The translations under genes were made by a program, and so were the position numbers. Below the pieces are notes generated by a model. That model was not told the origin of the DNA. It searched no databases and was given only the letters and a program-made list of their open reading frames with translations. Below, in pieces: positions 2,066 through 46,468 of a DNA stretch of 64,000 nucleotides. The stretch's first letter is position 1. Every line of letters starts with the position of its first letter. Origin of the DNA: Agarophyton chilense (taxonomy: Eukaryota; Rhodophyta; Florideophyceae; Gracilariales; Gracilariaceae); contig JARGXX010000121.1 in NCBI GenBank assembly GCA_030374765.1, forward strand, positions 372,001-436,000, in the 5' to 3' direction.

Positions 2066-3891
2066 TCAAAGAGACGTGCGAGCACGCAGGTTCGCAACAA
2101 GCTGTGCGCGATCACCCTCAACTTGGTCCACGGGAAAGCCCGCATCTAAGAGGAACTGCCTCAGCGGATCCAAGCCTGGATCTTCGACCGGCACTGCACT
2201 CGGTTGTTGGGTAAACCCATGAGAGTACTCTTGAGCAACTCCCGCCGCTGCGGATTGATCGACGGAAGTCGCTACACCTGCCAGCTCTGGCTCGTCCTCG
2301 TATCCGAGTTCAGCCTCAGCTCCTAGCGCTTCCTCGTACGGTTCCTCTCCGTTGTCAAATAGAGTAGCATCGTACACGTATCCAGTAAGCTGGTTCAGTG
2401 GCATGTCACGCGGGTTCTCCCGAAGAAAGCGAGCCTGCTCGGAGGAGATCAACTGGCGCGTCCAGGGGTAGTACCAAACGAAATCTCCAGCACTTGCTTT
2501 TCGTCCAGGAGAACGGTCGTGGTGTCTTGCACGGGTTCCGCGAGCGGATTGATCAGCTGGCAATCCAGACCAATCGACACTGTCGATCAAATCCACAAGA
2601 TAGAGGAAGTCGGCATGGTTCGCACGGGATCCCAGGACCAGGGAAAGATCGAGTTCTCTCGCTTACTTTTGCGCTGTGGGCGGCCTGTACCAAACTCTAA
2701 AGGTATCATAAGCATCCCACAGGAGGAAGACGGCCATCTTGGCGATAAAATCGGTATAAAACACCGTCCAATATCCCGAGAACGGGTCGTTAACCAACGC
2801 GGACCCGATGTAGAAGGTCGCCGGTGGGAGCTCCACAGGGCAACCACGAAGACTCTCGATCGACGCCCAATGCTCCGGAATACCGATGTAGCGCCCGAAG
2901 CACGCGTTCCTCCGGTTGCGGTCAATCTCGATCATTTGATACGGCACCAAATAGCCCAAACGTGATCGAGTACGACGTTCCCAACTGGGATGATCCCAAT
3001 AGGGAATGTCACGCTTTCGAAGGAAGCGGAACTCCGCACGGAGAAGAGGTTGCTGAAAGCAGAGAGCTGCATCACGCACACCGCGCACACCGCGCCAACC
3101 GCTAACACGACTTCAACGAGTGTCTCGATATACGAGTAACCTTCACCGTTGGTACGGGCTTTCCAGGTATCTAGTTCCCAGTCCTGCGGGAGGAGAACCG
3201 TACTGATGAATCGGTGAAGACGCTGGTAAATCAGCTCGGTGAACCGCGTACGGGCTTCGGACAAGGGTTCCGTTGAATATCGCGCAATCGCGTTGTCTGG
3301 CAAAGCAATATGGCTCGCCCAGTCGTCACTATAAATCGCGTGTTCTGGGATACCGTCAGGGAAGCACCGACCGTGTACATACTGTTGTATCAACGCGTCA
3401 TCGCGGATAGCAACTGGATCAAACCAGGGCACCTGCGCGAAAAGTTCAACGTTGTCGAGAGGATCTCGTCCATAGAAATCCGCAGGGTGCGGGTAGCTCC
3501 GCTGAGCACGACGAGAAGGAGCTCGAATCACACCCGCATAGGCGACGTAAGCCGCGTTCGGCATCGGAGCCACGGTTGGCTGAGGTAACGTTACCGACCG
3601 GAACCCGGTGTACGGTGTGGGGAACGAACGGTATGGACAGAGTTGAGCAGTAGGCTGCGACGCACAACCAGCAGTGTTTTACGGAGCCCCAGAAGGCACA
3701 TCTTCAGAGGAGGGCTGAAACGGGTTGGACCCGGTGTTCGGATCCATCGCGAGAGATCGAGCTAAAGAGCGGTGAGGAACAGAATGCTGTTGAGAACTGC
3801 AAGAGTTGGTCGTGCGGCGAGGAATTCGTGATGACGATGAGTACCCGGAACACCAGTCCGACTGCGTATAAACGCTTCTTGCGTCCCCCAT
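2066..3891 (-). pseudogene. Antisense accessory ORF (aORF), copy 1, in family C element
   Basis: Read opposite to pol, starting at ATG 3891, 24 bp from the LTR edge, and ending at 2066. One frame covers 3891 to about 3000 with a TAA at 3679-3681. A frameshift near 3000-3088 moves it to a second frame, which continues to 2066 with a TAA at 2663-2665. Shared with the other copies: an N-terminal Pro/Ser/Thr-rich tail with SRIPR and TGFRS, WFDP...RDDALIQQY, PLLRAEFRF, YLVPYQMIEIDR, GRYI.IPEHWAS.E, VELPP.TFYIGS, and a hydrophobic stretch (AKMAVFLLWDAYD). The C-terminus is acidic and ends in a short helical motif (LRQFLLDAGF...LVANL). No known family recognised. Homology to three further copies in this window is the main evidence that it was once a gene rather than a chance ORF. 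Confidence 0.7.
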
Positions 3892-3899
3892 GGTTCGCG

Positions 3900-3915
3900 C
3901 TTAACGAGGGGGGTA
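3900..3915 (+). promoter_or_regulatory. Polypurine tract of family C element
   Basis: A G-run (CGAGGGGGGTA) lies immediately upstream of the LTR start, where plus-strand priming occurs in LTR elements. It fixes the element orientation as + and the adjoining LTR as the 3' LTR. Confidence 0.6.
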
Positions 3916-4582
3916 TGTAGTATTCTACTATGTCGGGGAATCCGATAGGATGATTTTTCGCGAAGTTGCGGTTGGAACTCCTAAGTGACTGATGTCATCA
4001 AACTTGTGATATGAAACGGCACACCGCGTAGAATGCCAGAAGGCAGCGTACATTAGTGGAACACGTGGTATCACGAGTGGAGTGGCTTGCAACGGCGCAT
4101 GTAGTGGCGATACACGTGGCAGGTTTTACTAGCCTTTGTAGCCAGACGTCCATTAGGGACCACACCCATACAGTGGTTTGGCTAAGTGGCTGACCACTGG
4201 GTATTATTTATATATTTATTTGGACACTGACCCTGGCACACAGTATATAGTGCACCAGAGGTGAGCGCCGACTCCAAGTAAAGGAGACAACATGGGCATC
4301 CTGACTATTCTGTTCCTCGCTTAGGATTCCTTAACCGGAGATCCGGACGAGCTATAATAGATAGTCAGCCCCCAACCACTTCACGAGCCGTCTCGTACCT
4401 ACGTTCCATCAAAGTTTTACAGTTGCACTGTTCACCCTCGCTGGCGAGTAGTGGCCTTACACCCCACTTCCAGCTCGCTGGTGTTGTAGCTCTACCACCC
4501 CTTTTACTTCGCCGCAAGGGACCCATCGGCAGTCCGAACGCTGTCTCAGGTGTCTGCTCTTTCCATTAGAGCGGATACTACA
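3916..4582 (+). repeat. LTR, family C (3' LTR of the element entering from the left)
   Basis: Begins TGTAGTAT and ends ATACTACA, a perfect 8-bp terminal inverted repeat. A reverse-complement copy of nearly the same length is at 33242-33907, which fixes both edges. An A/T-rich stretch (about 4203-4222) could hold promoter or polyadenylation signals. The matching 5' LTR would lie left of the window, so the target duplication cannot be checked. Confidence 0.85.
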
Positions 4583-18826: not shown

Positions 18827-19098
18827 TCTCGTACAATCATCTCTGGGGTATGCTGGTGTCTTGTGTCGGGAGCGTAGTGAAGCTCAACCGTAGGGAGCGT
18901 GTTGACGCTCAACCTCAGAAGGTAGAAGTAGTAAACCTCGATCGTAACAGGGCATCGTGAAAACCCGGGAGTGCAAACGGCGGGACAACTAGCCTATAAC
19001 GTGTAGGTGACCGATATTCGGCGTCAACGCGCGGGAAAGCCTATGTGGTAGTTGAGAAACAATAAACCAAAAGGTATAGTCGTGACCCTAGTGATGCC
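18827..19098 (-). repeat. LTR, family B, left part (split by the family A insertion)
   Basis: Begins TCTCGTACAATC (consensus TGTCGTACAATC) and aligns with the first 272 bp of the other B LTRs. It stops at ATGCC (19094-19098) and resumes at 31304. Together with 31304-31665 it makes a normal-length B LTR. It serves as the 3' LTR of the B element whose antisense ORF lies at 31686-33140. Confidence 0.85.
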
Positions 19099-20761
19099 TG
19101 TAGGACAATGCCCCCTAGGGAGAAAACCTACGAAGACGTTCGGATCTTCCTCTCACGAGGTAACCGGCGCGGTAGAGCCCTCCCAGGGATCGGCTCGCAA
19201 TGCCGGGTGTAAGCCGGAGCCGAACCGTCGCAACGGGCGCAGGGAGGCCGAAAGAAGCCGAGAATATCCGCCAAAGCGGTGCTTGCGTATCCTCTGAGGA
19301 GGCAAAACCCACGAAAGTGGCGAGAACGACAGGTGTCAGTGCGAGCCACAAGAGCGGGAATTGCCCAATGAAGGGGAGGAAAAGGGAAGGAAAATGGGAA
19401 CGGAGGCAAGAGGGCGAGGTTGACCACGAGTCGCAAGAGAAGACTCGGGAATAGCCGGAACTGCCGGGTGTAGCAAACCGTATACACGGGCGGAACCACG
19501 TAGTGGGAATAGATACCCAACACACGAAGGCTGCTTGAACGTCCAAGTGGGTTAGGAAGCCGTGCACCATGGGAAATCCCTCCGTAAGGAGTTTTATATC
19601 CGCGCAGGCGGTTCGACCCAGAGCCAAGATCTGGAAGACCAAGATCACCGTTTTTGGAGATACTTTACTGGACCGGCGGCCGCGAGGCCGGCGGCCTAAG
19701 TACTGTAGTCACCGTAGAATAGAATAAATGAAGTCTATCCTAAATAGCTAAATGTCCGTCTAACAAAGGGGCCAATCTGGCGGCCACGTGTCGCACGGGC
19801 CCTGCGGCCACGTGTATGGCACCCGGTCCCGCCGGTGCATCACCGGCGTTCCGGCCATCGCCGTGTGAAGTGCAACTCTCGTGAGGGCCGTTTTCCAGGA
19901 CTTGGTTGTTTTTCCGCCTCGGGCGATACTTGTGAGATCTATGAGTAATACCGCTACTAGCGGGCTGGCGTAGCCAGGTATATACGCGTTGTACGCGAAG
20001 TGCACTGGCGGCCGTGCGCCGTGGCCCCGATTCGGGTGTGACTTACCCACGTGTACCACGGGTGGCCCAGGACAGGTTGGCACAGCATAGCTGGATATTT
20101 CTCTATTTATTTAGCTTTATTACACTAGGTTAGGGAGATCTCTACAGTATTCTACACTATATAGTGCCAGGGCGATCTCGCCCCGACACTCAGTAAACCT
20201 CCCCAACCAGGGTTCTTGGCTCTAAGTCTTTTTCCGCTTTCGCGAGTCTTCCACACTCTACGGAGGTGAAGCCGCGTTACTAACGGTAGACTTATCCACC
20301 ATGCGTCAACAGGAGACTCACCGCTGTTAGCGTGTATATCTTTCATACCACTGCCGTGTTCTCGCCCCAGTATTGGGTTTGATACATATTTCTTTTGGCT
20401 CTCGTGGCCCATGCCCCCGATCGCCCCCACTGGGTGGTCCCCCCTTTTATCACTTGCCCACTCCCGTGGAATACAGCTCATAGCTGGTCTGCTCCCTTCT
20501 AGCATCCCGCACTCTCCCCGCTTGGCGTGCCGGTGAACCTCGGCCTTACACCCCGACTTAGTCGTGTTCACTCCGGAGAGGCTCCATCGCCGTGCTACCC
20601 TCCTTGGAGGAAGACTCGGACATCTTCGTGTGTTTCCGCCGCCCTTGGCGTTGCACTACACCGTGAAAACGGATTACTCTTACTCATAACGAGGTTGCAC
20701 GCCGGAGGCTCCGGAAAAAGCTTAAGTCCCCAAAAACCTCCCTGGAAGACGTTGCTCTTCA
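19099..20761 (-). repeat. LTR, family A, 3' LTR (long version)
   Basis: Same ends and near-identical outer sequence as the LTR at 30436-31298, but it carries about 795 bp more (about 19866-20660). The shared short sequence CCGTG lies at both edges of the extra block, as expected for a deletion in the other LTR. The extra block has an A/T-rich core (about 20095-20165). Confidence 0.88.
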
Positions 20762-20780
20762 TATCCCCCCCCCCCCCTTA
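20762..20780 (-). promoter_or_regulatory. Polypurine tract of family A element
   Basis: A run of 13 C on + (20765-20777) reads as a G-run next to the 3' LTR on the element strand, the classic position of the plus-strand primer. It lies between the LTR and the antisense ATG at 20814. Confidence 0.75.
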
Positions 20781-20813: not shown

Positions 20814-22589
20814 ATGGCAGCTCGTCATGATAAGAGCGCGTCCGACACCGGGTCTCCGGAAAGCAACACACCTTCACCAAGGATCCCACGCCAGCTCTTC
20901 GCATCCGATTCCAGCCACAGCACACCAACACGTATCATGTCCAACCCCGACCGTCATAACACATCCGCGACTCCCGCCCTTTGCGGTTCCACCGGCTTCC
21001 GGTCCGCCCCCCACCCTGGGGATGTTACTAACCTCGCGTACGAGAACCGCCGTATTGGCGCCCGCTTTTGCAGACAGGCGGACCCACCGCAGTGGCCGAC
21101 CTACGACGCCTTTGTGGGTGCAAATCCGAGAACTCGGCATGGCTCCGCGATGTTGCGGTATGCGCGTTGGTTTCACCCATTGGCTGTCCGCGACGAGGAT
21201 TTGATCCAATCCTACACCGATAACTCGGAGATGCTCCCGGGCGCCCTGCCCGGCGTGGTGACCCTGTCCTGGGATTGGCGTAATCGTATCGCCATCCTGG
21301 TACACCACATACTCCGCCGACGCGGTGAATCCTCTGCGGAGGCTCAAGCCGCGCTTGTGCGGATTGCTTATCTCAGGCACCATCGGGCGCCTTTCGAGTT
21401 CCCGATACCGCCAGAGGTCGAATTCGACGTCCACCTTTACCGCACTCGCGAGGAAATGTCGTACTGTGACCGTCTTAACGGATTGGAAACCCTCGCTTGG
21501 AGGGGCACACCAATCGCTCGGCAAGAAGCCCTTTGCTGGGCACGACCGATTCTTCGGGCAGAGTTCCGCTACCAACCGCGGCAGTCGCGCTCGAGCTTCC
21601 TTCAGAACTTCATCCGCGATGAGCGGCGTTGGCGGGCCTGGACCGGGTATTTCGTACCGTACCAGAACACGGAGATTGAGCGCATCGCGCCTGCTCACCG
21701 ACGTGGTCGGTACGTCAGTCTCCCAGACTGGTGGTCCTCCTTGGAGGCGTGCTGGGGTTGCTTCATTGAGCTGCCCCCAGTCTTCACCTATGTAGGGTCG
21801 TCGTTCTTGAACGATCCCCAGTCGGGGTGGTGGTCCGTCGTGGTAAGCGAATGGGCCGTCCGCACTGCGGCCTTTATCCTCGCTGAGGCGTACGACCAAT
21901 ACCGATTGTGGTACGTGCCACCGCGTGTGCGGGCTGCGATCCGCCGTTAGGACATGCGCATCCCCCTCGGGGGCGAGGCGAACGAAGAAGAGATGCTGGG
22001 CCTCCTCGACTTTGTGGAGGGGGTCCAGTGGGATGAGGTCCCGCTGGAGAACTCCCAACGCATTCAACCGCGTCGCGGGTCTGGCCCCGGATTCGGGAAG
22101 AATACCGCGCTAGCGGGGGATTTCATCTACTTCGACCCCTGGGATTACCACGAGATCAGCCGCGGGGAAGCGGAAGCCAACCGGCATGCACCACGTGAAG
22201 TCCCGGCCGACCACCCGCGAGGGTATGTCGATTCGAGCGACTATTACCGCGGCTATGCGGATGGTGACCCGATGGTCGACAACGAACCGGAGGATTCGGG
22301 TTACGCTCCGATGGAGGATGACGAGTCCGGCGAGGCCGGTGAGGGGTCCGTTGATTACGGTGGTGCGGCTCCATTTGGGGCTGCTGATGCCGTGTGAACA
22401 GATTTCTATCCGAATCCATCGGTGGCGGGCCCGCCCGCAACTGCCGCTGGCGCGGAGTGGGGCGAGGTCATCGCGCGCTTCCTTCGGGAGGTGGGGCTTC
22501 GCCCTTCCGAGATCTCGGGTGATGTGGCCGCCATGCGGGATGCCTTAGCCAACCGCCTGGGCGGGGGTCCACCTCGTGCGGAGGAATGA
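20814..22589 (+). pseudogene. Antisense accessory ORF (aORF), copy 2, in family A element
   Basis: Read opposite to pol from ATG 20814, 52 bp inside the 3' LTR edge, to TGA 22587-22589. The phase is continuous with stops TAG 21948-21950 and TGA 22395-22397, so it may be read as three pieces of 378, 147 and about 60 residues. Conserved core: RWFHPLAVRDEDLIQSY, TLSWDWRNRIAILV, RPILRAEFRY, YFVPYQNTEIERI, RGRYVSLPDWWSS, IELPPVFTYVGSS, a hydrophobic segment SEWAVRTAAFILAEAYD, LWYVPP. The second piece is acidic with FIYFDPWDYHE. The last piece, after TGA, ends in a helix-turn-helix-like motif (ARFLREVGLRPSEI ... DALANRL). I know no family with this profile. The best-preserved of the four copies at the N-terminus. 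Confidence 0.75.
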
Positions 22590-22921: not shown

Positions 22922-25900
22922 TTATCCCTCTTGGGCGTTTACCAGCGTGGCTGGGAGTGCGGTCCCCGCAAGGCGGTGGTATCGCATTACGGCGGAGCGC
23001 GGGAGGTGCTCGATGGGCTCCGGGGTGTCCCACTCCGGCCCGTATCCGTACCAGCGGGTCCGGTACTGGAGCACCCCGTGCTCATCGTAGCTATGTCCGA
23101 CGAATCGGTCGAGGACGTACTCCTGCACGTAAACTTGCCGGCCTTGCCGGGTGGTGGTGGCCCGAGCCTCAGCGCCGCGTGGTGCTGTGCTCGTCGTCGC
23201 CTGTTCCGGGTCACCCGGTTTGTCATTCCGCTCTGCGGTTATTGCCGGGTTGCTGGGGCTGCCGTACCGTTTCGCGGAATTTGCCGGCGCGGCCGGGTTG
23301 TGTTTCCGCTGGGCGGTAGGGGCTTCCCTGAAGTCCGCTCTTACCGCGAGTTTGCGGGGGTTTTTCCGTCTTGGTGACGGTTCGCTGGAGGCCTCCGCTT
23401 GATTGGCGGCCTGCGGCGTTCCCATTGGTGGGTAGTTTCCGCTGTGCGGTGCGCCGTGGGCGGTGAGTGGTTCACCGTCCCGGCGATCCGCCTCCGCGGG
23501 GTGGCTGTCAGCCAATGACCGGGATGCCGGGTGCCCATTGGTCCGATCTCCCGCCCGGGTCACGTGACCTTGAGTATGGGTGGTCGGACCGTCGCGGACG
23601 GTTGGCTCCGATTGTTCGGCAAGGGAGGCGGTTTTCGACTTGTCGTCGCGCCCCTTTTCCCCCATGGGGTTCGTACCGTTCTCAACGGAGTGGCTCGCTA
23701 GACCTGCTTGCGCAGCGCCCGCCGGAGTACCGGTATCGACCGAAACGCTCGGTGTGCCACCGCGAATGTGCGGGGAGCCCTTAGTTGCTTCCACGCGATG
23801 CGGAGCGTCCGTAGGGTCTCGCTTCCCGGCTTCGTGTCTTCGAGCGCCTTTGCCCCCCTTGCGGGATTGCGTGGCGGTCGGGTTGACCGCCGCGTCCCGC
23901 GGGAGCGGATTGGCGTCCGGCGACGATGCCGGTTGCCCGCTCGGGGGCCTTGCCCGGGGTGTCCGGTTAAACTTCCGTTGCGACGGCGATGCTTCCGCGA
24001 TTGAGCGGGTCCCCTTCCCCTCCTTAGACGGAGCGACGGGTGATGGTGGGCTAACCGCATGGCGGGTATAAATACCGCTGAGCGGCGCCCGCAAGGGTAG
24101 CTGGCCGCGAGGGCCAGGTGTTTCCGGCATTGCCGGTGGTTCCGATAAAGTCGGTATATCGGAGAGACTCCGTGAGGGGTGCGGTACCACGGCGGGGCGT
24201 GGTGCCACCATTGTGCCCGTGGTATCCGAGGCCGTTTCGACGGGGGCTGATGCGTTTTCCGCCTGCGGCGGTGGGGCGGCTACGATGCGGTCTTGTGAAA
24301 GACGTTCGTGGTCGCCGTTCTTGTCCACCACAACGGTGCCGGGGAGGGAGGACACGACCCAGAACGGACCTTCAGTGACAGGCGAGAGCTTGTGACGCTT
24401 GTCGGTCCGGGGGTTGTAGTACTCCCGGCGAACGAACACGTAGGTTCCCGGCTTGGGCGGTGCCAGTAGTGGTCCGCGTAAGCGGTTATCAAAGTCCCGC
24501 TTTTAGGCGGCCTGGGCACGTTCCATGGACTTCCGGGCGACCAGTACGAGCTTGGTATGCCAGTTCTTCCACTTGAGGCGGTATTGACCCACGGATGGGA
24601 AAGATTTGACCCTGTGTTGGGGTTCGACCGCCACTGGCGGGGGTGTCCTGGAGAGCACAAGCTCGAAGGGAGTCAGACCGGTTGTCCGGTGAACCTGCGT
24701 GTTGTAGGCGTAGGTGATAGCATCAGAATAAATTTCTCACGTCATTGGGTGATCGGATACGTAGGAGCGTAGCGACGCGAGTAGGGTGTGGTTGAAGCGT
24801 TCCACCTGCCCGTTTGCTTGCGGGTGGTAGGTGGTAGTAAACAGGTTCTTGACGTCGAGGATGCGGCAGACGTCCTGGAAGAACTTAGAGGCGAACTGCT
24901 TACCGTTATCGGATAGAACCTCTATCGGAGGGCCATAAACGAACGCCCAGTGCGTAATGAAGGCGTTCGCAACCGTGAAAGCGGTGATCTTCCGTAAAGG
25001 TACGGTGCGCACCAGCTTCGAAAAGCGGTCAGTGATAACCAAGAGGAACTTGTTTCCCTTGCGCGTTTTGAGTAGAGGCCCGAAAATGTCGATTGCGACA
25101 AACTCGAGGGGCGCCCTTGCGGGGAAAAGCTTCATCCGTTTGGAGTGCTTCCGGAGTTTCACCCGGTTCTTTGCGCATTGGGTGCAGAACTGCACCGTAG
25201 CGTAGCAATCAACCGCCATAGCGGGCCAATAAAAGACCCTTCGCAGGGTTAGATAAAGTTTTCTCCCACCGGAGTGTCCCCCGAGGGTCGAGTAGTGTGA
25301 GAGGTGGAGCACCCTGGTTTGCAGGGTGTGAGGGACCACGATCTGGGATCGGTGGTCCACCGTCCGGACGAGGTAACCGATGTCGTTTACCTCGAACGGG
25401 AGGTCCTCTCCACCGTTTAGGCGGGCCCGTATGCGCGTGCAGAACGGGTCGTCGAACTGTTCTCGGATCATCTCTTCGGTGGAGATGGGTACAAAGGTCC
25501 CGGGTACGGGTGTTTCATTCTCGCGCGCTGCGAGTAGCTCATCAATTTCCATGGTGTCTCCCCCGGTTTCGGGCCAATCCGACTCCGTCGGTGTTTCCCC
25601 TTCCAAGGTAAAGCACGGGATCTCGTCGACCTCCGGCTCCGCAAGTGCTTCACCTGTCGTAGGTAATCGAGAGAGGGCGTCTGCTTGGGTGTTCTGGACA
25701 CCCTTTTTGTAGACGACCTCGAAGTCCAATTCCGCTAAGCGGAGGCGCCACCGCATTAAGCGGCCAGAAGGATCTGCGATGTTCAGCAGCCACCTCAACG
25801 AGGCATGGTCCGTGTACACGGTGAAATGAACGCCCATGAGGTATGGGCGCAGAGTGGATAGCGCCCAGACCACTGCGAGGCACTCCTTCTCGGAGACCGA

Positions 25901-28165
25901 GTAGTTGCGCTCGTGGATGTTCAGCGTGCGGGACCAATAGCCAATTGGATTGCGTTCCCCCTCGGGGGTGGTTTGGAACAGTGCGCAGCCCACCTGGTGG
26001 TCGCTGGCGTCGGTGTCGATGGAGTAGGGAAGCCCAGGTTTGGGCAAGGATAGGATGGGAGCTGTCGTAACGGTCTTAATCAAGGAGCGAAAAGATTCCG
26101 AATGATCGGTGGTAAATGGCGCAAGCTTCGGTAGCTGGCCCTTCCGCAGTAGCGCGTTTAGCGGAGCGGCGATATCCGAGAAACTCGGTATAAACCGTCC
26201 ATAGACGTTGACCAGACCTAAAAAGGATCGGAGCTCCGTTTGAGTACGGGGCTCCTTCGCCTCACAGAGGGACTTGATAAGAACTTGTTCGATCATTAAC
26301 CGTCCTGGACGGATGACGTGCCCGAGATACTTCACCGTGTCGGTGAAGAACTCGCACTTCCTCAACTTGAGGGTTATTCCTGCGTCTCGCAGTACGGTCA
26401 TCACGTCCCGCACGTGGGTCAGGTGATCGTCCTGGTTTCTGGAAAAGACAATGATGTCGTCCAAGTAGACAAGGCACGTGCGCCACTTGAAACGCGACAT
26501 CAGTATGTCTATTGCCCTTTGAAAGGTGGCCGGTGCATTGGTTAAACCAAACGGCATCCGCTTGGAGCGGTAGGAACCCGAGTGGCAAACAAACGCGGTT
26601 TTGTCTCGGTCCTCTTCTCGGACTGGGACTTGCCAGTAGCCCCAGTTAGCATCCAGAGCCGTAAACATGGTAGCGTCCCCGAGCGAGTCTATACACTCGT
26701 CCATGCGCGGAATCGGGTAGGTGTCCCTCACGGTGACGGCATTGAGGCGGCGGTAGTCAACGCAAAACCGCCACGTGCCGTCAGCCTTGAGGGCCAGCAC
26801 CACCGGTGAAGCCCAAGGAGATTGGGCGGGCTCGATGACTCCAGCACGGAGCATCTTGTCCACCTGAAATTCTTCCTCCCCCCGAGCTTTCGGTCCCGCC
26901 CTGTAAGGGGGTTGTGCAACCGGACGTGCGTCCGGTAGCAAGTCTATCCGATGTTCGGTTGTATTGATCTCACCCAGTGAGCCGTCCCACATTGTGGTAA
27001 ACTCGCGTAGCATTCCGCGTAAGCGGTCCCGGTGTGAGACCGGTACATGACTCAGGTCCAGGTCCTCGAGGGCCTTGATCGGGTCTATCTTATCGTAGCT
27101 CGTAGGCTGTGCCCTGGTGTCAGGTGTGAGAACCGACGAGGTCGGAAGTGCATCCGTCTTGACGGTTTTATCGAGCGCCAACTGCTGTGCCTCCCCGGAG
27201 GTTTCTGCACCGGATACCGGGAGACCATCCTCGGTAAAGGGAGTTATTCCGAGTACTTCGGCAGCCGTCACCTTTGTAGGGAGCATCGCGAGCGGGTGCG
27301 GCGTCATAGACCCAATGACTTGGTTCTTTGCCAGCGTCTGGGGAGCCTTTCCCAGATTGGCAACCAACACCCTGAAAGGGGAATTCGGCGTGACTTGCAC
27401 GATTCCGTTCGCAACGGTTAACTGAAATTTTTCGTACAACGAGGGCAAGGGCTGAACAACCCGAAGACCGTGTTGACGGGAATTGACTGAAATCATAACC
27501 TGGCTCTCCGGGGGTATGGTGACTGACGAGGCAACGCGTAGCTTCGTAGAATCCCGGTTCGCCGGTGTGGGTTCCTGCGCAGCAGGTAGAGGAACGTGTT
27601 TCCTCGATGCCCGCTTCAGCGGTTGACGAACAATGGGGACGGTCGATCCGTCCTCAAGTTCCACCTGCTTAAGGCGTGGGCGGATGGCGTCGAAAAACCT
27701 GTTGCAGTAGTCACATCCCAGTATAACTGGCGCAGCCAGCGAGCGGCACAAAATAAAAGTTAGTTTAACCACCATCCGCCCTAGCCTGACGACCAGGTCG
27801 ATCACACCAACCGTTTTAAACGGGTTGTTATTGGCGTCTGAGACGTCGGGTACAGTTTCAGAACGGATGAGTGACCGCAATGGCGGGGGTAAAACCGATT
27901 CCACAATAAAGTTCGGCCCAGCACCTGTATCCAAAACAGTGAGATATCTCACCATAAACTGCGTGTGCAGACCAAGGTCAGCGTAAATCTTGTAGTTACG
28001 CTTGGCCATTACCAAGACTCTATCCGGGATCCGGTTATTTCTAATCCGTATCCACGGTCGACGCAAAACACCGAGGTTTTTAGAGTCCGCGTCTGCGGTG
28101 TCCTTCCTTGTCGGGATTTTCACCGGGGAGCGAGGCATCGGCGCCTCGGGCGTCGTCAGCCTCAA
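22922..28165 (-). pseudogene. Pol polyprotein, family A (protease, RT, RNase H, integrase, chromodomain)
   Basis: One phase throughout, broken by TGA at about 24739 (where Trp is expected) and TAA at about 24503. Order: aspartic protease (VLDTGAGPNF, near residue 80); reverse transcriptase (FCVDYRRLNAV, MPFGLTNAPATFQRA, YLDDIIVF); RNase H (DTDASDHQVGCALF, VYTDHASLRWLL); integrase HHCC finger (HLSHYSTLGGHSGG ... CTQCAKNR); DDE core (AIDIFGPLLKT, VLSDNGKQFAS, HPQANGQVERFN); a long Pro/Ser-rich linker; and a C-terminal chromodomain (QEYVLDRFVG, RTRWYGYGPEWDTPEP). All catalytic residues visible are intact; only the two stops and the gag/pol break disable it. The chromodomain would direct integration to marked chromatin in chromoviruses. 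Confidence 0.93.
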
Positions 28166-28200: not shown

Positions 28201-30321
28201 CTATTCTTTTCCCTGTACAGGGTCCTGGTCGGGCGAAGGCCCGACTTCCTCGGCAACGAGTGCATGATTCCGTTGCACGGTAGCTACCGCAGGAGCGGGT
28301 GGAGATCCACCAGCGTGGTTTGGCGCTGGAGCGGCGCGTGCCGGCTGAGCCGGTTTGTACCGATAATTCGGAGTGTGAGCCAATGCGTTGGGGAAGTCCG
28401 TCTTCGCGCGGAGATATGACGTGAGTGGCACGGAGCCCTTCTCCTGCGGGGAGAGGACTTCGTAATCATCCACCACTCGCGCCATATCGCGTAGCGATAA
28501 AAGGCATTGCGGGAAGGTGTGCCCGCGCTCGTAGCACAAGTGGCACACCAACGTCACTCCCGCGTTTCGCGGTACGGCATTCCGAGCATTGGTGTATCTT
28601 CCGGGTTCCCGGTTTCAAACCCATCCAGGGCACTGACTTCGTGTCATTCCGTTCGAGTACGGCATACGGGGGACCGGAGTGCGGCTGTCATTAAGATAAA
28701 AGACCTGCCCGTTCTCCGTGTCCCTTGCGGTTGAGTCAACCGAGCCATCCGTCGTAGACGGTAATTCCGTTGTCGGAAAAGATAAACCATCGTGATGGAT
28801 GACATTCATATTGTCATAAACCTGTTTTGGGATGCCATCCGTCGCAAATGACGGTGAAGAAGAGTCCGACTCAAGCAGCAATGCCTTAGCGGCCTTCGAC
28901 CGGGTTCCCAGATTGCGTGCACGTAGTGCATCTCCCTCTGCGCGGGCAAACTGTACGAGTTCAAGGTAGGTCACCTTCGGCTCTTGTTCCCTGTAACGGG
29001 CGACAAAAGTCTTGATTGCTGGATCCCAGCCATCAATGAACATCGTACAGCGTTCCCCAGCGGGGTATACATTACCACAACGGTGGAAAGCCTTATTCAG
29101 GCGTACCGAGTAATCGGTCTCGAGCTCGCCGGAGCGTTGTCGAGTGTCTCGCAAAGCGAGTATCGCCGCTTGTATCGCGGAGTTGATTGCGGAGGAACGC
29201 AGGAGGTGCTGCACGGCCTCGGGCCAGCAGGTCACACCTCCTTCGGAGGCTCGCGACGAGCCCCGAACCGACAAAAACTGATCTTCAGCGACACCCCGTA
29301 GAAAGTAGGGTAGCGCCACGTAGGCTTGTCCTTCGTTCATTCCGAGTATATCGGCTTCCGCTACAAAGCGGTGTAGGAAATCCAAGACCAGAATTGGATC
29401 ATCCCCAGTAAACGACTGGTTACGAAGTGAAAGCTGCATCCGCTTGATGCAGTCTTTCACTTTACCCGTGTCACGCGGTGTCCGACCTAAAGAGGAATCT
29501 TCTAGCCGGTAAGACTGGTAGGACAGGAGTGTCCTGTCCAGAGGGTTGGTGGGCTTCAATGGTTTGAGGCCCGGATGTCGCCGACCCTTGGGGCGCGACC
29601 GGATGGCCCCGTAGGTGGTAGAGGACCGCTTTGAGCGGGAAGAGCGCCCATAACGATCCTGCGGGTCATCGCTCACCGACGAATCGGAACTCTCCGAGTC
29701 ACTCGGTTTACCATCCGACTCAGATGATGAATCGGACGGGTGTCCGTGCTTACAGTTAGAATCCCGGTTCTTCCGGCTCTTCCGGTTCCGCGACTGGGTC
29801 TCTCGATGAGAGATAACCGGTCTAGCCGCGTTCGCGGTCGAGGTTAACGTCCTCTCGACCGACTCAAGTTGGCTTCGGAGACGCTCGAAGCGATTCTCCA
29901 TACCTTCTGCGAAGGAAGACGGAGCGCGAAAACACTCGAGTAGTGTATTGACGTCCGACCGCAATACGCGGATATCCTCAGCTAACTCACTTGGAGGGAA
30001 GTTAGCGAGGCTTCCTCGTAAAGAGGTGAACTCCCTCGAGAGGGTATTGTGAGCAGCCCGCAGGGAGTGGAGCTGCTCTCCCAAGCGTACAATCCGCGCT
30101 TGGTCGACCAACCGCGGAGGCGGAGAAACCACCGTTGCGACGGTCGTTAACCCGGAATTTGGCTGCGGGTCTTCAGTGCCGGTGACCGGTATCTCCCGGG
30201 AATCCGGTGTTGGAGCCAGGGCCTGTGAAACTTTAGTGCACCTGGCATCACCACTTTGGCGGGAACGGCTGCATGTTGCAGGAGGCTCCATGCTAGGCGG
30301 TTTCCTTGGCATTGGCCACAC
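28201..30321 (-). pseudogene. Gag, family A, with zinc knuckle
   Basis: The frame runs 30321-28201 with one in-frame TGA at 28615-28617. The N-terminal part is predicted helical, followed by an Arg/Ser-rich low-complexity block (NRKSRKNRDSNCKHGHPSD). The capsid-like core has KDCIKRMQLSLRN, VLDFLHRFVAEADILGM and YFLRGVAEDQFL. After the stop comes a CCHC knuckle (CHLCYERGHTFPQC, near 28545-28505). Pol starts in another frame just downstream (28165), so synthesis of pol would need a frame change. The first ATG could also be 30291. Confidence 0.85.
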
Positions 30322-30412
30322 CGTCTCGACGGAAAAATAGAAAGCAAACCGGTGAGACCGGAGAAAACCCGTTTAACGGAAAACAACCTCAGAGAGGACA
30401 CAAGCGGTCTTG

Positions 30413-30435
30413 ACTTCTAAGTCGGGAGACAAATT
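30413..30435 (-). promoter_or_regulatory. Primer-binding site, family A element
   Basis: Right inside the 5' LTR, the minus strand reads TTTGTCTCCCGACTTAGAAG, the same motif as TGGTCTCCCGACTTAGAA in the other copies with a changed 5' end. Confidence 0.55.
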
Positions 30436-31298
30436 TGTAGGACAATGCTCCCAAGGGGGAAAACCTACGAAGACGTCCGGATCTTCCTCTCACGAGGTAA
30501 CCGGCGCGGTAGAGCCCTCCAAGGGATCGGTGCGCAATGCCGGGTGTAACCCGGAGCCGAACCGTCGCGACGGGCGCAAGGAGGCTGAAAGAAGCCGAGA
30601 ATATCCGCCGACGCGGTGCTTGCGTATCCTCTGAGGAGGCAAAACCCACGAGAGTGGCGAGCACGACAGGTGTCAGTGCGAGCCGCAAGAGCGGGAATTG
30701 CCCAATGAAGGGGAGGAAAAGGGAAGGAAAATGGGAACGGAGGCAAGAGGGCGAGGTTGACCACGAGTCGCAAGAGAGGACTCGGGAATAGCCGGCACTG
30801 CCGGGTGTAGCAAACCGTATACACGGGCGGAACCACGAAGTGGGAATAGATACCCAACACACGAAGGCTGCTTGAACGTCCAAGGGGGTTGGGAAGCCTT
30901 GCACCACGGGAAATCCCTCCGTAAGGAGTTGTATATCCGCGCAGGCGGTTCGACCCAGAGCCAAGATCTAGAAGACCAAGATCACCCTTGTTGGGGAGAC
31001 TTTACTGGACCGGCGGCCGCGAGGCCGGCGGCCTAAGTACTGTAGTCACCGTAGAATAGAATAAATAAAGTCCATCCTAAATAGCTAAATGTCCGTCTAA
31101 CAAAGGGGCCAATCTGGCGGCCACGTGTCGCGCGGGCGCTGCGGCCACGTGTATTGCACCTGGTCCCGTCGGTGCATCACCGGCGTTCCGGCCATCGCCG
31201 TGAAAACGGATTACTCCTACTCATAACGAGGTTGCACGCCGGAGGCTCTGGAAAAAGCTTAAGTCCCCAAAAACCTCCCTGGAGGACGTTGCTCTTCA
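30436..31298 (-). repeat. LTR, family A, 5' LTR (short version)
   Basis: 863 bp, same termini as the 3' LTR, lacking the roughly 795-bp block. The outer parts are near-identical by eye to 19099-19865 and 20661-20761, so the insertion is fairly young and the deletion younger. Confidence 0.9.
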
Positions 31299-31303
31299 AT
31301 GCC

Positions 31304-31665
31304 TGTCTTTATCAGATTAGGATGGGGGAGGTGCAGTTCCCTATATGCAGTGGACTGCACTCTCCAGAGCACCCGGGAGGTGCCAGCAAGGCACGGTCTC
31401 TGACCTAGTGTCAGAGACCTGGCCAGCACTGGCTACAGTGCCAGGTGGCCACTCAACTACTGTACTAAAATACACATAACTAAAATTACTATCACTAACA
31501 ATTACTCAACCAGAAGTTACATGTCAACACTACACGTGGCTTACAACACATAGATGGTGGCTCGCCAGGAGCTGCATGGCTGATGATTCCTCGCATCCAT
31601 CACCTACAAGGTCAGTGTAGTATATCGACAACCTCAAAGGTCAGACCTTCTGCCACTATACGACA
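31304..31665 (-). repeat. LTR, family B, right part (continuation of 18827-19098)
   Basis: Resumes at TGTCTTTATCAG exactly where the left part stopped, after one copy of ATGCC, and ends TATACGACA. Next to it the minus strand has GGAAAGGGTTGAG, a plausible polypurine tract, marking it as a 3' LTR of a minus-strand element. Confidence 0.88.
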
Positions 31666-31685: not shown

Positions 31686-33140
31686 ATGAATTCTTTTTCG
31701 GACAACAACGATCAAGTCCCTACCGGTGCGCCGAGCAACGCGGTATCATAATATCACAGTGGTTTCATATCAACTCCGCTCCGTCAGGATACTTCGCAAC
31801 CTTCCTTGAACAACCTCGTCGACGCTTCCGTGTGGAATTGTCCTCAAGCGATGCTCGTCTCAGCGAATGAATCTGGTTGGATATCGCGCGAATCGCTGGT
31901 GATGCGAGATCCTTTTCAGGGCAATTTCCTCTATTTAAGAGCTCTCTGGTTCCATCCCACTATGGTTCTCAACAATCAGCTGATCGACTCCTATGTGGAG
32001 GATGAGTACCTTCCAGGTGAACTTCCGGTTCAAATTGTCCGCTCGTTCGATTGGAGGAACCTCATCGCGGTTGACCTTAATATGCTTCTACGCAGGAGAG
32101 ATGAAAGTTTCGGTGATACGAGGTCTGCTATGGCGCGTCTGGCCGATCAGCGACTCAACCATACCTTTGGTGATTCTCCCGTACCGTCGGAGTACAACTT
32201 TGATGTTTCCTTATACAGAACTCGCGGTAAAATATCCTATGGGGATAACCTATCTGCCTATCCGGAAGCGGAGTACAATGTTACTGGTGTTCACAAGCTT
32301 TCTCCACACATGACTTGTTGGAGCAGACCGATTCTCCGAGCGGAATTTCGATATGTATCGAAGCAATCTCAGAGATCCTTTTGTCAGATGATCCGCTTCG
32401 AGCGAAAAGCCCGTTCCCGATCCGGGTGTTTCGTACCGTATCCGAACGTTGAGGTTGAACGCCTTCATCCGCGTTTTCTTCGAGGGAAGTACGTACCCTT
32501 TCCTAGATGGTGGAATCAGGTCGAAGTACCCCGTGGGTGTTACGCAGAACTTCCTCCGTGCCTTACCTACATAGGTTTACGGTTGTTAGCCGATGAGCAC
32601 TCGGGATACTGGAGCTTGCTCCTGGCCGAATGGGTGACCCTCGTTGCAGCGTTCATCCTTTGGGAGGCCTATGACCAGAACCGATTGTTGTATCTTCCGA
32701 TGGCTCTTCGGTTAACCATTCGAGCACTTAATTTTTACCCAGCGTTGGGCTCTGACGAGAATTGTCGTGAAACTCATTACTTACTGAGGGTCATCGATAG
32801 TGTCGATTGGGATACTGTCCTTCCTTTGAACCGCGCTCGCGGACAAGCTTCTCCGTATGATCGGTCTCCGGGACGTCGGCATCCAGGGGCTGGTGACTTT
32901 TTGTATGAAGACCCCTGAGAGGGTGTGGTTACAACCGCTTCCCATGCGAAGGCGTTGCGCCAACTGACTTGGGGCATCCTAGCAGGGCATCCAACTGGAT
33001 TTGTATACTCTGACACCGCTTCGGTTACCATCGATACCGATGATCCAAACGTGGATAAGGAGGATGTTGTCGCCTCTGAGGGGACCGTTCCTATGAGAGT
33101 AGCCGGTCCTAGTGGCGATACGGATGCTCCGGCGGGTTGA
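31686..33140 (+). pseudogene. Antisense accessory ORF (aORF), copy 3, in family B remnant
   Basis: ATG 31686 lies 20 bp from the LTR edge. One phase continues to 33140 with stops TAA 31749-31751 and TGA 32916-32918. Conserved motifs: LWFHPTMVLNNQLIDSY, RSFDWRNLIAV, RPILRAEFRYVSKQSQRSF, CFVPYPNVEVERL, RGKYVPFPRWWN, AELPPCLTYIG, and a hydrophobic stretch AEWVTLVAAFILWEAYD. Unlike copies 1 and 2 it reads through the junction after the hydrophobic core (LTIRALNFYPALGSDE) into the acidic part without a stop. TGA at 32916 replaces the Trp of the FDPWDYH-type motif seen in copy 2. The neighbouring pol and gag are absent. Confidence 0.72.
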
Positions 33141-33241: not shown

Positions 33242-33907
33242 TGTAGTATCCGCTCTAACGGAGAGAGCAGACACCTACGAGAGCGTTCGAACTGCCGATG
33301 GGTCGCTTGCGGCGAAGTAAAAGGGGTGGTAGAGCTACAACACCAGCGAGCTGGAAGTGGGGTGTAAGGCCACTACTCGCCAGCGAGGGTAAACAGTTCA
33401 ACTGTAAGACATTGAGGGAACGTGGGTACGAGACGGCTCGGGAAGTGTTTGGGGGCTGACTATCTATTATAGCTCGTTCGGATCTCCGGTTAGGGAATCC
33501 TAAGCGAGGAACAGAATAGTCATGATGCCCATGTTGTCTCCTTTACTTAGAGTCGGCGCTCACCTCTGGTGCAATATATACTGTGTGCCAGGGTGAGTGC
33601 CCAAAAAATACGTAAATAATACCCAGTTGTCAGCCACTTAGCCAAACCACTGTATGGGTACGGTCCCTAATGGACGTCTAGCTACAAAGGGTAGTAAAAC
33701 CAGCCACGTGGATCGCCACTACGTGCGCCGTTGCAAGCCCCTCCACTCGTGATGCCACGTCTTCCAACAATGTACCCTACCTCCTGGCATCCTACGCGGT
33801 GTGCCGTTTCATATCACAAGTTTGATGACATCACTCACTTATGAGTTCCAACCGCAACTTCGTGAAAAACCAAGATATCGGATTCCCCGACATAGTAGAA
33901 TACTACA
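33242..33907 (-). repeat. LTR, family C, inverted, no adjoining element body
   Basis: Reverse complement of the LTR at 3916-4582 with the same TGTAGTAT/ATACTACA ends. No polypurine tract on the right, no primer-binding motif on the left, and no matching 5-bp duplication (GTTCA vs TCATA), so it is neither a clean solo LTR nor a clear end of a known element. It may be the scar of recombination that removed the pol/gag of copy 3. Confidence 0.8.
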
Positions 33908-34430
33908 TCATAGCCAAAAGAGTTGTCGAAGATATTGATGACGACAAGTGGCTAACAGTTTGTTTTACGCAATGAGTAATGACCTTGAACATGGAATATT
34001 AGAAAATAAAACCCGCGGACCTGGCTTTGAGCGATACATGCATCGATCATGAGCAAGTTTGCCAATCTCCGCGTATAAATTTCTATTTTACTCTTCAGGT
34101 TTCTCTTTTCTATCCTCCCATGTTCTTAACAGGAATCCCTATTACATAGTGTGCTACAAGTCTTTCTGAGATTTAGCTTTGTGTGACTCGATTTTGCTGG
34201 GCACAAGGTGCAGGTTTTAACTACTATTCGCATCGGATCGGAATTTAAAGTTCAAGTGAGAGCTGCTTTAACGCAATAAATATTGGTGGCTTTTGCCATT
34301 GATATTGATCTTCTCCATCCAGACCAAGAATGAAGATAATTTTAAGGAGCTATGATTCTGAGTTGGAAGGGCGAAGATGAACTCATCAAAAATGTTGATT
34401 ACTTCTTTTCATTTGGAGTTGTTTTTTGTT
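33908..34430. other. Non-repeat intergenic stretch
   Basis: A/T-rich sequence, no ORF or repeat recognised. It ends at the TA dinucleotide (34431-34432) that flanks the Tc1/mariner element. Confidence 0.4.
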
Positions 34431-35600: not shown

Positions 35601-35873
35601 CAAAAAATATTGCTTGGACCATCGCAATCTCTCGAACTGTGGTCCAAAAATTCATCAACGATCCTAAGAACTACAAAAACTCTATAGAGGCTCTAACAAC
35701 AAAAAAGAGTGTTGCAGCTACACTAGATCTACTAAGTTCGGCTTCAAACTCATGTAGATCAGCTAGGGAACTCTGTAATAATCTTTTCCTTCCGATTTTT
35801 GTCAAACGAATACAACGGTTGGTACATGATAATTTTATTTTGATCTATAAGAAGATGAGAAAGGTACTCATGA

Positions 35874-36507
35874 TGTCGTACAATTACCTCTGGGGTATGC
35901 TACTGTCTTGTCTCGGGAGCGTAGTGACGGTCAACCGTAGGGAGCGTGTTGACGCTCAACCTCAGAAGATAGACGTAGTAAACCTCGATGGTAACAGGGC
36001 ACCGTGAAAACCCGCGAGGGCAAACGGCGAGGCGACTAGCCTATAACGTGTAGGTGAACGATATTAGGCGTCAACGCGCGGGAAAGCCTGTGTGGTAGTT
36101 GAGAAACACAAAACCAAAAGGTATACTCGTGACCCAAGTGATGCTTGTCTTTATCAGATGAGGATGGGGGAGGTGCAGTTCCCTATATGCAGTGGACTGC
36201 ACTCTTCAGATCATCTGTGAGGTGCCAGAAAGGCGCAGTCTCTGACCTAGTGTCAGAGACATCGACAACACTGGCTACAGTGCCAGGTGGCCACTCAACT
36301 ACTGTACTAAAATACATATAATTACAATTACTATTACTAACAATTACTCAACCAGAAGGTACATGTCAACACTATACGTGGCTGACAACACCTAGATGGT
36401 AGCTCGCCCGGAGCTGTATGGCCGATGATCCCTCGCATCCACCACCTACAAGGTCAGTGTAGTATATTGACAACCTAAAAGGTCAGACCTTCTGCCACTA
36501 TACGAGA
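35874..36507 (-). repeat. LTR, family B, 3' LTR of the 35.9-47.8 kb element
   Basis: Starts TGTCGTACAATTACC and ends TATACGAGA. On the minus strand AAGGGGGTC next to its inner edge is a plausible polypurine tract. Full-length alignment with the other B LTRs. Confidence 0.9.
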
Positions 36508-37594
36508 GACCCCCTTCCTACCCGTGAGACACGCCCCGTGTCTCCTTCCATCAACCCATAGATGTTTAGCGAGCGACAGCGGTGCGGGCATCGGAGTGGT
36601 GTCTGCGCGCGACGCGCGATCCCTTGAGGTTCAGAACTCGGCACCAGTATCGGTTGGTGAGGGCGCGCGACGACGTCGGCGCGCGAATTGAGCGACAACC
36701 ATTCAGGTGGGGACTGTCATGAGCGCGATGCAGTGTAACTAGCGCGCTCACGGACACCTTTTCGGTAGTGGCCCTGCTTGCTTGCGATTTTGCTTCCGCA
36801 TAGCACCATGTATAACCAAGTTGGCATCTCACCTTTTCCGGTTACTCCAACTTCAGTTCCCTCCTAGGTCCCTGCGCGCGCCGTCTTGCCTCGTCGTTTC
36901 CACGGCTCGACAACCCTTCAGGTATTGCTGCCCGTAATTGGCGGCGTCGCAACCGTAACCGTGCTGTCCGGCTTTCCCTGAAGGTTTCCTGGTTTTTCGA
37001 CATTTCAGGTTTCGTCTACCTTGTAAGGATTGACTCGTGGCACCGGTGGGGCCGAAGCCTGCGTCGATACAACCATCGAGGTGTTGGCCTGGGCCCGTGG
37101 TGGGAGCTTCCAGTTGTGAGACCTTATTGGTGCTGACAGGCCCGGTCGGTAATTACGCGACCTTTTTCCAGTTTTGCATTCCGGTTTACACTTAAGGAGA
37201 TGACAGGATCGCACCGCCTCCACACACGCGTTTGAACCCATTCGGTACCACGTCGATGCACCTCGCGCCGCATCGTGCATTCGTCACCGATACCTCGAAG
37301 GGGTGGGTCGTCCCCACAAGCAGCACCAGCGCTCCAGAGACGTGAGATGCCGGTTACAATTGAGGTTGAAGACGTCGGCGACTCCGAGGGGATCGATACC
37401 CCTGCAGTTATGCCTTTAAGGTCGGATTGGTCCCGTTTCACGATACCTCAAAGGTCTGGTCCCGCTCAGAACCGCACGCCAGCCACTGTTGTACCCGAAA
37501 GGTCGGTCTGGTACTACAGGAAAGGTTGGATCCGTTGACCGTCTCCTCAGAACGGACCTAGAAGGCTCTACTTCAGAAGAATGAATAACCGCTG
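36508..37594 (+). other. Leader region between family B 3' LTR and antisense ORF
   Basis: About 1.1 kb with no clean ORF; only short frames such as 37275-37538 (+). In the three other copies the antisense ATG is 20-52 bp from the LTR, so here either the N-terminus is spread over broken frames or the region was inserted. Nothing else recognised. Confidence 0.4.
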
Positions 37595-39664
37595 GTGTTC
37601 ACCGCGGCGGTGGAGTTCGAGTCATCACTTCGTTCGTTGGGTCGAGCTACGGCCTTCCCAACCATGTCAGGTAGCTGCCCATCGCGTGGCCGTGGACGCG
37701 GTGGTATTAACAAGAGGGTGACTCGCTCGACTTCTCCAACGCCTACCAACATTGGGTTTCGCAGCATGCCCGTCCCTGCGACTCAGTTCTCCCCTGGGAC
37801 TCCGGCTGACCCAAACCAACGCAGTGGTGGACTTCCTTCGACGACTCAAACCAATTGGGCTCACAATCTCGCGTTCGGTGCGGCGAACCGGACGACGAGT
37901 CAGTATGGACCTTTTCGTATTACCTTCGACCAGGTGACGCACAGTGACCTGTTGAAGCACGATTGGCCTGTGGCGGTGGGGAATTCATCATTGCCAGCAG
38001 CTCTTACCAGACCACAATTGGATAGCTACTTGGGTTTGTCCCGTTGGGAATGCGAGCGCCTTCGCTCCGTTCCATTGCTCTTGAAGAAACGGAACCAAGA
38101 GTCTCAACCTCGTCAGGGTCGAATGGAATCTTACCAGAGTCGGCAGCGTCATACATCTTTGAGGTATTTCATCCCGCTGATATATCCGAGGGACTTGCCG
38201 TATGTGCGCATCGACCCGGAGCTGGATTATTACCGTCGATTGGTGGTGCAAGTGTGCCAGTACCCGTCTATTTCGGAGACTTACCTTCCGGTTTCACCTG
38301 ACTTGGTTTACCTGAATCGGCCTTTCACCACTATCAATTGGGCTGACCATAGTAGGTGGGACGGGGATGCAGCGACGGAGAGTCGCGTTCGCACTCGCAA
38401 CTCTTACAATCGCTTTATGCATATGTTTCATAACGTCGAGTACTTCTCACAACCTACGAAGGGCAGATGCAATTGGTACGTGCTTTGACCAAAGTGGTGG
38501 GAGTCCTATGAGGTTGCGCTAACGCTGCGCGTGCCCACTCCGCCGGTTTTGGCGTACTTTGGGAGTCAGATTTCCCGGAACCTAGAGCGGTATTACCTCA
38601 TTTGGTCGATTGCCCTCTCGGAGTGGACCGTGTTGGTTGTCATCCTGGCTCTGGAGGCCGCCCGTTACGGTATCGATTGGGATTGTCGCAATCCTGACTC
38701 TGACACATACCGAGATGGTGTTCAACCTGTAGGTCGCATCTTCTTCATACCTCCGAGGGTTGCCCAGGATATTTCTCCATTTGGTTACGAGAACATCGTG
38801 GAGGGGACCGATTATACCGTGAAGGATTTGGACTCGTATCTAGAGCAGAGCAAGAAATACCAATGGGATTCCCATCAAGGTTGGGAGGCTTTCGATACCG
38901 CAACTTGGGAGATTGTGCCTCGCCACGCCCAATATTATCCCGGGGAGCCTCTTGTTTATGGAGCTCCCGCGATCCCCGAACCTTATCACGGTACAGTGGA
39001 GACAACAGTTGGTCGTTATGCTGGTCCCTTCCCGTTCGAGCCGTTACCTCAAGGTCGTAAATCGCCTATCACTACGGGTGTGACTCCTACTCAACCGAGC
39101 TCCTCGCGGGTTGCTGGTCTGTTTCGACCTCTGTTGGCGGGTATTGCTCGTCCTCCGCCTCAAGCTATGATGGAGTCTCCGGCCGTAGTCGGTTTGCTGG
39201 CTCGAATTCGCCAGTCTTGCGTCACTAACTTTCAGAGGGCTGGGCCTACCTCCGTGGTTGCTGAATTAACGCTCCTTGAAGGTTTGCTGCCGCGTCATGC
39301 GCAATACCTGAAGACGCTGAACCAACTTAGTGAGTTCCGGAATCAGTTCCAGTTCGACATGTACCAACTGGCCTCCCGTTAGGTTGCCAATCTGGCAAGC
39401 GTCTCTGCTACTGAGCCATCTGATCCTTTGAAAGATCCCCTTCTAGGTGCTAACTTGAACCCAGCGGTTTTGCAACCTGCTCCGGCGATTCGTTTCGTTC
39501 ATCCTCTTTTGGTTTCGACTCCTCTTCCCAGTGGCGGGGCTAGCGCTCCTTCGCTACCTCTTAGGTCGATGGCTCCTAGTATTTCCGCAGGTTTTCCTCC
39601 GTGGGTAGTCAATAACACGGGTCCTTCTGATTCCATTGCTCTTAAACAGACATGTCCTTCTTAA
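37595..39664 (+). pseudogene. Antisense accessory ORF (aORF), copy 4, in family B element
   Basis: One phase from ATG 37595 to 39664 with stops TGA 38486-38488 and TAG 39380-39382. It is the most divergent copy. A Ser/Arg/Gly-rich N-terminus (GSCPSRGRGRGG) is followed by a counterpart of the core around 38489-38680 (PKWWESYE, TPPVLAYFGSQ, IALSEWTVLVVILALEAARY), matching PDWWSSLE / LPPVFTYVGSS / SEWAVRTAAFILAEAYD of copy 2. The downstream part differs from the other copies and ends in helical stretches (AELTLLEGLLPRHAQYLKTL). Homology is limited to the core, so the downstream region may be a separate domain. Function unknown. Confidence 0.62.
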
Positions 39665-46321: not shown

Positions 46322-46447
46322 TTGTGATCAATAGTGGTATCCTGTATTGCTTTGCGGGATTTTCTGAAACCAAATAGATGTACGAGCGTCCAATCCTTCT
46401 CGGAATCTCGTGTGAACCGTGAAGGTAGGACCAAACTAAAAAAAGCG

Positions 46448-46468
46448 TTCTAAGTCGGGAGACCAAAA
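46448..46468 (-). promoter_or_regulatory. Primer-binding site, family B element
   Basis: Four nucleotides inside the 5' LTR the minus strand reads TGGTCTCCCGACTTAGAA, beginning with TGG opposite a tRNA CCA end. Identical to the motif at the A-like LTR (4758-4775). Confidence 0.6.

Follow-up and report, generated by a model that had tools for sequence, protein, structure and literature searches.

Analysis of a 64,000-nucleotide stretch of Agarophyton chilense DNA (the window) revealed four copies of an open reading frame, designated aORF here, next to LTRs of retrotransposons (Table 1). In elements A, B and y the aORF is flanked by pol on one side and by the 3′ LTR on the other. The original prediction had all four copies antisense to gag-pol. 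This holds for the copies at 20814, 37595 and 2066, and also for one family D copy, but no pol can be assigned to the copy at 31686, which belongs to family C, and pol of family C was not seen.

Table 1. Features of elements A, B and y and of the family C aORF in the window (strands as read in the window)
Feature	Position	Strand	Remarks
aORF of element A	20814..22589	+	intact copies have 591 residues; this one has stops at codons 379 and 528
Element A LTR adjoining aORF (3′ LTR for gag-pol)	19099..20761	+	insert at ~19866-20660
TAT plus C-run (polypurine tract on gag-pol strand)	20762..20777	+	directly internal to LTR, 5′ of aORF start
Element A other LTR (5′ for gag-pol)	30436..31298	+	
Element A pol 3′ part, chromodomain-like end	22922..24439	-	Pfam Chromo 16.3 bits, below cut-off of 25.1
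Element A pol: RT, RNase H, integrase	24737..28165	-	
Element A gag-like ORF	28615..30321	-	by position only
aORF of element B, remote member	37098..39664	+	frameshift near 37510, stop at 38486-38488
Element B LTR adjoining aORF, B-type (3′ LTR for gag-pol)	35873..36508	+	~590 bp before aORF start as seen
Element B pol end	39825..40460	-	resembles a chromodomain by eye only, without a Pfam Chromo match
Element B pol pieces: RT, RNase H, integrase	40711..43388	-	
Other B-type LTR	46469..47759	+	interrupted at ~46898-47580
aORF of element y	2066..3891	-	frameshift near 3100
Element y LTR	3915..4582	-	~24 bp from aORF start, C-run between
Element y pol end with chromodomain	871..1758	+	33.3 bits, over Pfam cut-off
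Family C aORF	31686..33140	+	no N-terminus; codons 22 and 411 are stops
B-type LTR, right part	31299..31665	+	left part at ~18829-19098; split by element A
Single y-type LTR beyond C aORF	33242..33908	+	

The LTR of element A that adjoins the aORF matches the other LTR at 95-97% in two pieces, and a 5-bp duplication, ATGCC, is found at 19094-19098 and 31299-31303. Element A was inserted in a B-type LTR, both parts of which can be recognized. This bears on the prediction that the LTRs beside the copies (A, B and C) differ completely, which was partly mistaken, since the LTR next to the 31686 copy is this split B-type LTR and not family C's own. The LTR bodies do differ, but two of the four window copies adjoin one LTR type. 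Independent LTR/aORF pairings in the window number three (A, B and y), and those of C and D come from other loci. The elements had also been called chromoviruses; the chromodomain of y passes the Pfam cut-off, but the chromodomain-like ends of A and B are not clear by Pfam, and the pol end of a D copy gave no Pfam Chromo match.

All four window copies of the aORF are broken. Positions 20814 and 22589 correspond to the ATG and the stop of intact copies elsewhere. The frame of the 37595 copy starts near 37098 or earlier, and the 31686 copy is without the N-terminus found at other C loci.

Several further features of the window were recorded. A common TTCTAAGTCGGGAGAC-type or TTCTAAGTCGGGAGACC stretch adjoins the 5′ LTRs of A and B (30400-30435 and 46440-46467). 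We take it to resemble the anticodon arm of tRNA-Arg(UCU) rather than the usual TGG primer site, and half-tRNA priming of the A and B elements is possible. Two long open frames are apparently host genes: one of 1964 aa at 49757-55651 (+), with ankyrin- and armadillo-like repeats by eye, and one of 742 aa at 14609-16837 (-), which by eye looks TIR-like in one stretch and protein-kinase-like at its end. An ORF of 583 aa at 59370-61121, in which zinc-knuckle-like and retropepsin-like stretches were seen by eye, may code for gag and protease of a different type of retroelement.

Distribution of the aORF protein family

Comparison of the window copies bore out the prediction that they belong to one protein family, for the 37595 copy only remotely. 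The 20814 and 31686 copies are 42% identical over 326 aa (E 2e-79). The 2066 copy was matched in two frames by queries of the A, D and P0003 types (best E 2e-83) and is closest to P0003, with 41-43% identity in two pieces lying in different frames. A plain BLASTP comparison of the N-terminal piece of the 37595 copy with the 20814 copy gave no match (E 0.39). The same copy was matched in tblastn by P0003 (E 5e-10) and by the transcript-derived P0013 (60% identity), and in a single hhalign comparison a B-group profile aligned with that of the remaining members with a probability of 97.7 (E 1.6e-12, 241 columns). These alignments place the 37595 copy in the family, though at a distance from the others. 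Motifs recognized across copies by profile comparison include YV..P.WW, PP...Y.GS, SEW and IPPRV.

The genome was searched as 79.8 Mb in 135 contigs and only the best candidates were scored, so that the following counts are lower bounds. The aORF occurs in no fewer than five families of LTR retrotransposons (A, B, C, D and y), with at least 109 matches for A, at least 133 for B and at least 110 for C and D together; by manual count, 86 of the latter are D, 19 are C loci and four C pieces, and one is a short other piece. No stop was present within the aligned part of 82 of the 109 listed A matches (manual count). Copies were collected via the aORF itself, a procedure that would miss elements without it. 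Several element families have retained the gene, which cannot be put down to one element having been copied recently, as had been argued. The suggestion of a co-opted host gene is not supported; the copies examined are linked to elements.

Placement relative to the LTR is regular. An LTR end followed by a C-run precedes the aligned aORF start by 45-54 bp at 30/30 family A loci and the aORF by 79-81 bp at 10/11 family D loci; by a strict pattern, an LTR end and C-run of their own were recognized at 6/19 C-group loci. At those C loci, and in A, D and y, the LTR end is separated from the aORF start by this C-run, which is the polypurine tract on the other strand. Element B has a C-run after the LTR too, yet its aORF starts up to ~590 bp further in. 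When 11 other C loci (L032-L042) were compared, a B-type LTR was present only at L041, and further away. Other C loci have up to ~1.09 kb in common, ending in the region of the aORF start and absent from the window copy; the C loci examined are decayed. Three A loci (L006, L007 and L008, G000:C68:3136681-3159208) have aORF copies 9,197 bp apart that are identical over 1,776 bp, which may reflect either element A units in tandem or a repeat produced by the assembly.

Relatives of the aORF protein were found in Gracilariopsis chorda (P0001, 71%), Gracilaria domingensis (P0004) and A. chilense (P0006, P0009-P0012), with further ones in ENA and other assemblies; these protein searches reach only relatives that have exact 5-residue words in common. 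P0013, a single assembled Trinity transcript in EukProt, is also a relative. Protein identity is ~40-70% among families A, C, D and other genera. Families A and D are 57-69% identical in pol (over the two long pieces) and ~42% in the aORF, families A and B 45-47% in pol and 23-28% in the aORF. The order among families is therefore the same and the aORF changes at a faster pace, which suggests, as far as pairwise identities can, that the gene travelled with the elements and was not captured repeatedly.

Selection on the aORF frame

The original prediction had proposed dN/dS as a check. Nei-Gojobori counts were summed over all pairs, with bootstrapping over codons; the within-family values mix live and dead copies. 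Codons 81-380 of the A aORF were taken as the core. From the 30 top-ranked A loci, L003, L017 and L026 were left out for a shifted start, L005, L011, L021, L024 and L027 for a gapped alignment, and L007 and L008 as duplicates, leaving 20 that include the window copy (L001). These gave 0.54 (0.43-0.68) for the whole ORF, 0.72 (0.39-1.36) for the N-terminus, 0.91 (0.62-1.24) for the C-terminus and 0.31 (0.24-0.44) for the core, an estimate lowered by sampling on protein score, as the top-ranked copies are those most like the query. The other + frames gave 1.10 and 1.15. For 20 low-ranked A copies the core value was 0.63 (0.46-0.85) and the shifted frames gave 1.05 and 1.17; with all 40 copies the core value was 0.47 (0.36-0.60).

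Similar data were obtained for family D in 11 of 86 copies, a non-random sample of best matches to C: 0.31 (0.19-0.52) for the core, 0.60 and 0.82 for the N- and C-termini, and 1.43 and 1.33 for the shifted + frames. The terminal parts are thus less constrained than the core in both families (0.60-0.91). For family B, five of 133 copies, chosen non-randomly for the longest open frames, gave 0.57, with 1.12 and 0.88 in the shifted frames.

Variants found in at least three A copies had a ratio of 0.34 per site (17 synonymous, 17 not) and rarer ones 0.60 (127 synonymous, 222 not). A lower ratio in the commoner variants is as expected if selection acts in the active lineage and ends after insertion. 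The last 175 codons of A pol gave 0.74 (0.54-1.07) without the misaligned row L014 (0.84 with it), which is in no strong contrast to the 0.63 of the low-ranked aORF core; the chromodomain alone gave 0.60 (0.30-1.38).

Overall, the aORF is protein-coding, with a core of ~300 residues under purifying selection in families A and D and, less firmly, in B. Sense-strand coding as a cause of the conservation, another refuting outcome that had been named, was rejected: the opposite frames contain stops and have dN/dS of 1.02-1.60, except for the mirror frame, in which third positions coincide and which gave 0.62 with 20 stops on average in A and 0.37 with 11 stops in D.

Protein features and LTR words

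In the aORF protein a basic core rich in Arg and Trp is preceded by a loose N-terminus, which in A, B and P0001 contains the motif GFRSxP, and followed by an acidic C-terminal part; in A the core has a net charge of +11 and 13% Arg, and the C-terminal part a charge of -22. As predicted, the protein is unlike known families, for neither family libraries nor PDB gave a match over any cut-off. Pfam returned only matches below cut-off (DUF3905 with E 0.088 in D, SH3-A_UBE2O with E 0.15 in P0003). With hmmscan there was no match to PF04195 in the aORF proteins scanned, and none in Pfam to bZIP, the domain of HBZ. The PDB sequence search yielded one match at chance level (E 1.1), PHROGs one for B only and not over cut-off (E 0.24), and among viral contigs 17 pattern matches included no relative. 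Two AlphaFold runs (12 and 13 sequences) gave mean pLDDT of 34.9 and 37.0, too low for use, so no fold backs nucleic-acid binding.

Given its position, transcription of the aORF would have to begin in the 3′ LTR or close to it, and an antisense promoter therefore most likely lies in that LTR. The LTR bodies differ among families; the end GTTGCTCT followed by a CTCC/CCC tract is common to A, C and D. No TATA-like word was found in the A LTR or in the D LTR stretch examined. In a word scan that used copies keeping it (C copy L037 and one B copy), the 8-mer TACACGTG/CACGTGTA was present, as a raw count, in 5/5 LTR families; the word had been noticed before counting. The inner 300 bp of all five LTRs have seven hexamers in common, including CACGTG (shuffled mean 0.24, largest 6), and CACGTG reached 5/5 families in none of 1000 Markov-shuffled sets. 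There were 24 8-mers common to at least three families against a shuffled mean of 7.2 (largest 24). CACGTG is absent from C copies L032 and L034 and from the B copy at 35873; with such copies included its total was 6 against 1.04 (0.0004 of simulations) and the family count was not striking (0.049). Across the whole window it occurred 27 times against 16 expected (1/100 shuffles). Within LTRs, CACGTG words were noted at 19785-19814, 31122-31151, 4062-4118, 7386, 31533, 33705 and 47628, mostly 130-265 bp from the LTR edge on the aORF side. The G-box-like word apparently common to the LTRs is a lead only; being palindromic, it could serve transcription both ways.

Possible function and relation to known antisense genes

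On balance, the aORF is probably an old accessory gene of Ty3/gypsy-type elements of the Gracilariaceae, chromodomain-bearing or chromodomain-like, which is read antisense and codes for a selected protein that most likely acts in trans on its own element. As described above, the frame runs opposite to gag-pol between pol and the 3′ LTR in A, B, D and y, and it begins just past the polypurine tract in A, D, y and some C loci. In the proposed scheme its mRNA would be initiated at or near that LTR from an antisense promoter, and the protein may act in trans on the nucleic acid or the transcription of the element, a mode of action known for HTLV HBZ and proposed for GENE23 of Grande and the TRP28 proteins of Retand. 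The most likely role would be that of a regulator or replication helper acting on its own element, a regulator proper being possible rather than probable.

Several other explanations were considered. A particle or replication helper, such as an RNA chaperone or a factor for nuclear import of the preintegration complex, instead of a transcription regulator, is rather unlikely as the specific role. It would agree with the RRxR clusters in the Arg-rich core of the A, D, P0001, P0003 and P0005 proteins and with the gene being kept with the elements, but support for it is as weak as that for a regulator, there being no fold.

We are more doubtful about a separately evolved loop resembling that of HBZ, in which the 3′ LTR would fire the antisense mRNA via the palindromic G-box TACACGTG, the protein would control the LTR, and sense and antisense output would be balanced by a two-way promoter in at least five families.

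It is also improbable that the antisense RNA matters more than the protein, the convergent transcript forming double-stranded RNA with the 3′ end of gag-pol and damping the element through small RNAs. The layout is indeed convergent, the stops of aORF and pol being separated by ~330 bp in A and ~160 bp in B, and such a role has been proposed for plant antisense ORFs (PMC7264820). However, a function of the RNA only would leave unexplained both the lower dN/dS in the aORF frame and the protein identity retained among A, C, D and other genera. The hundreds of copies and the divergent families provide variation enough to test protein against antisense RNA.

The idea that the aORF encodes a surface protein, Env-like or of movement type, in reverse has slightly less still to recommend it. 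The aORF occupies the place of env, between pol and the 3′ LTR, and contains one conserved hydrophobic stretch (SEW...AFIL), which peaks in the B group (KD 1.75 and 2.05), where hydropathy makes a membrane span borderline in B_L062 and P0013. Against this, the orientation is antisense, no Pfam match was over cut-off, and with a maximal KD19 of 0.90-1.45 the A, D, P0001, P0003 and P0005 proteins show no membrane span clearly; by such hydropathy, spans are unlikely outside the B group. Finally, a decaying remnant without present function, conserved through shared element ancestry, would fit the four broken window copies and the decayed C loci, but it is very improbable given the stop-free majority of listed A matches and the dN/dS below 1 even in low-ranked copies (0.46-0.85).

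No report of a red-algal antisense aORF was apparent from titles and the beginnings of abstracts in the literature searched, a collection with most subscription journals outside it, and the accessible part of the Gracilaria sex chromosome paper (PMC12502185) has no mention of LTR, gypsy or retrotransposon. Extra ORFs as such are described in rotifer elements (PMC5408684). Antisense genes before the 3′ LTR are on record for flowering plants, one fungus and deltaretroviruses, mostly without an assigned role.

The plant Gypsy lineage Retand has TRP28 (PF04195) as an antisense ORF between pol and the 3′ LTR in 97% of clusters (PMC11963269). This is like the red-algal aORF in position and orientation, but Retand is a non-chromovirus lineage from flowering plants, and the red-algal proteins scanned are without PF04195. 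A genome search for PF04195 gave no match either, but it carries no weight, as the control genomes likewise gave none. In maize Grande (GENE23) and rice RIRE2 an antisense aORF adjoins the 3′ LTR; the GENE23 region is transcribed antisense and its protein is nuclear (PMC7264820). The placement is again similar; no sequence relation surfaced in the protein searches. Boty of Botrytis, a fungal LTR element, carries the antisense extra gene brtn (PMC7264820, PMC8365987), which likewise resembles the aORF in being an extra gene read antisense. The protein searches gave the aORF no fungal-named match, several matches being without an organism name. HTLV-1 has the antisense gene HBZ, and the antisense promoter of HTLV is located in the 3′ LTR (PMC11963269, PMC7264820), but this is another virus group, and the red-algal proteins are without bZIP or another Pfam domain.

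Compared with these systems, the position and orientation of the red-algal gene are known ones; what appears to be new, as judged by sequence comparison, is a protein without detectable relatives in known families and a different host lineage. That a protein with no detectable relation to those of the other systems is under selection in several red-algal element families suggests that this position before the 3′ LTR has been used repeatedly for an accessory gene.
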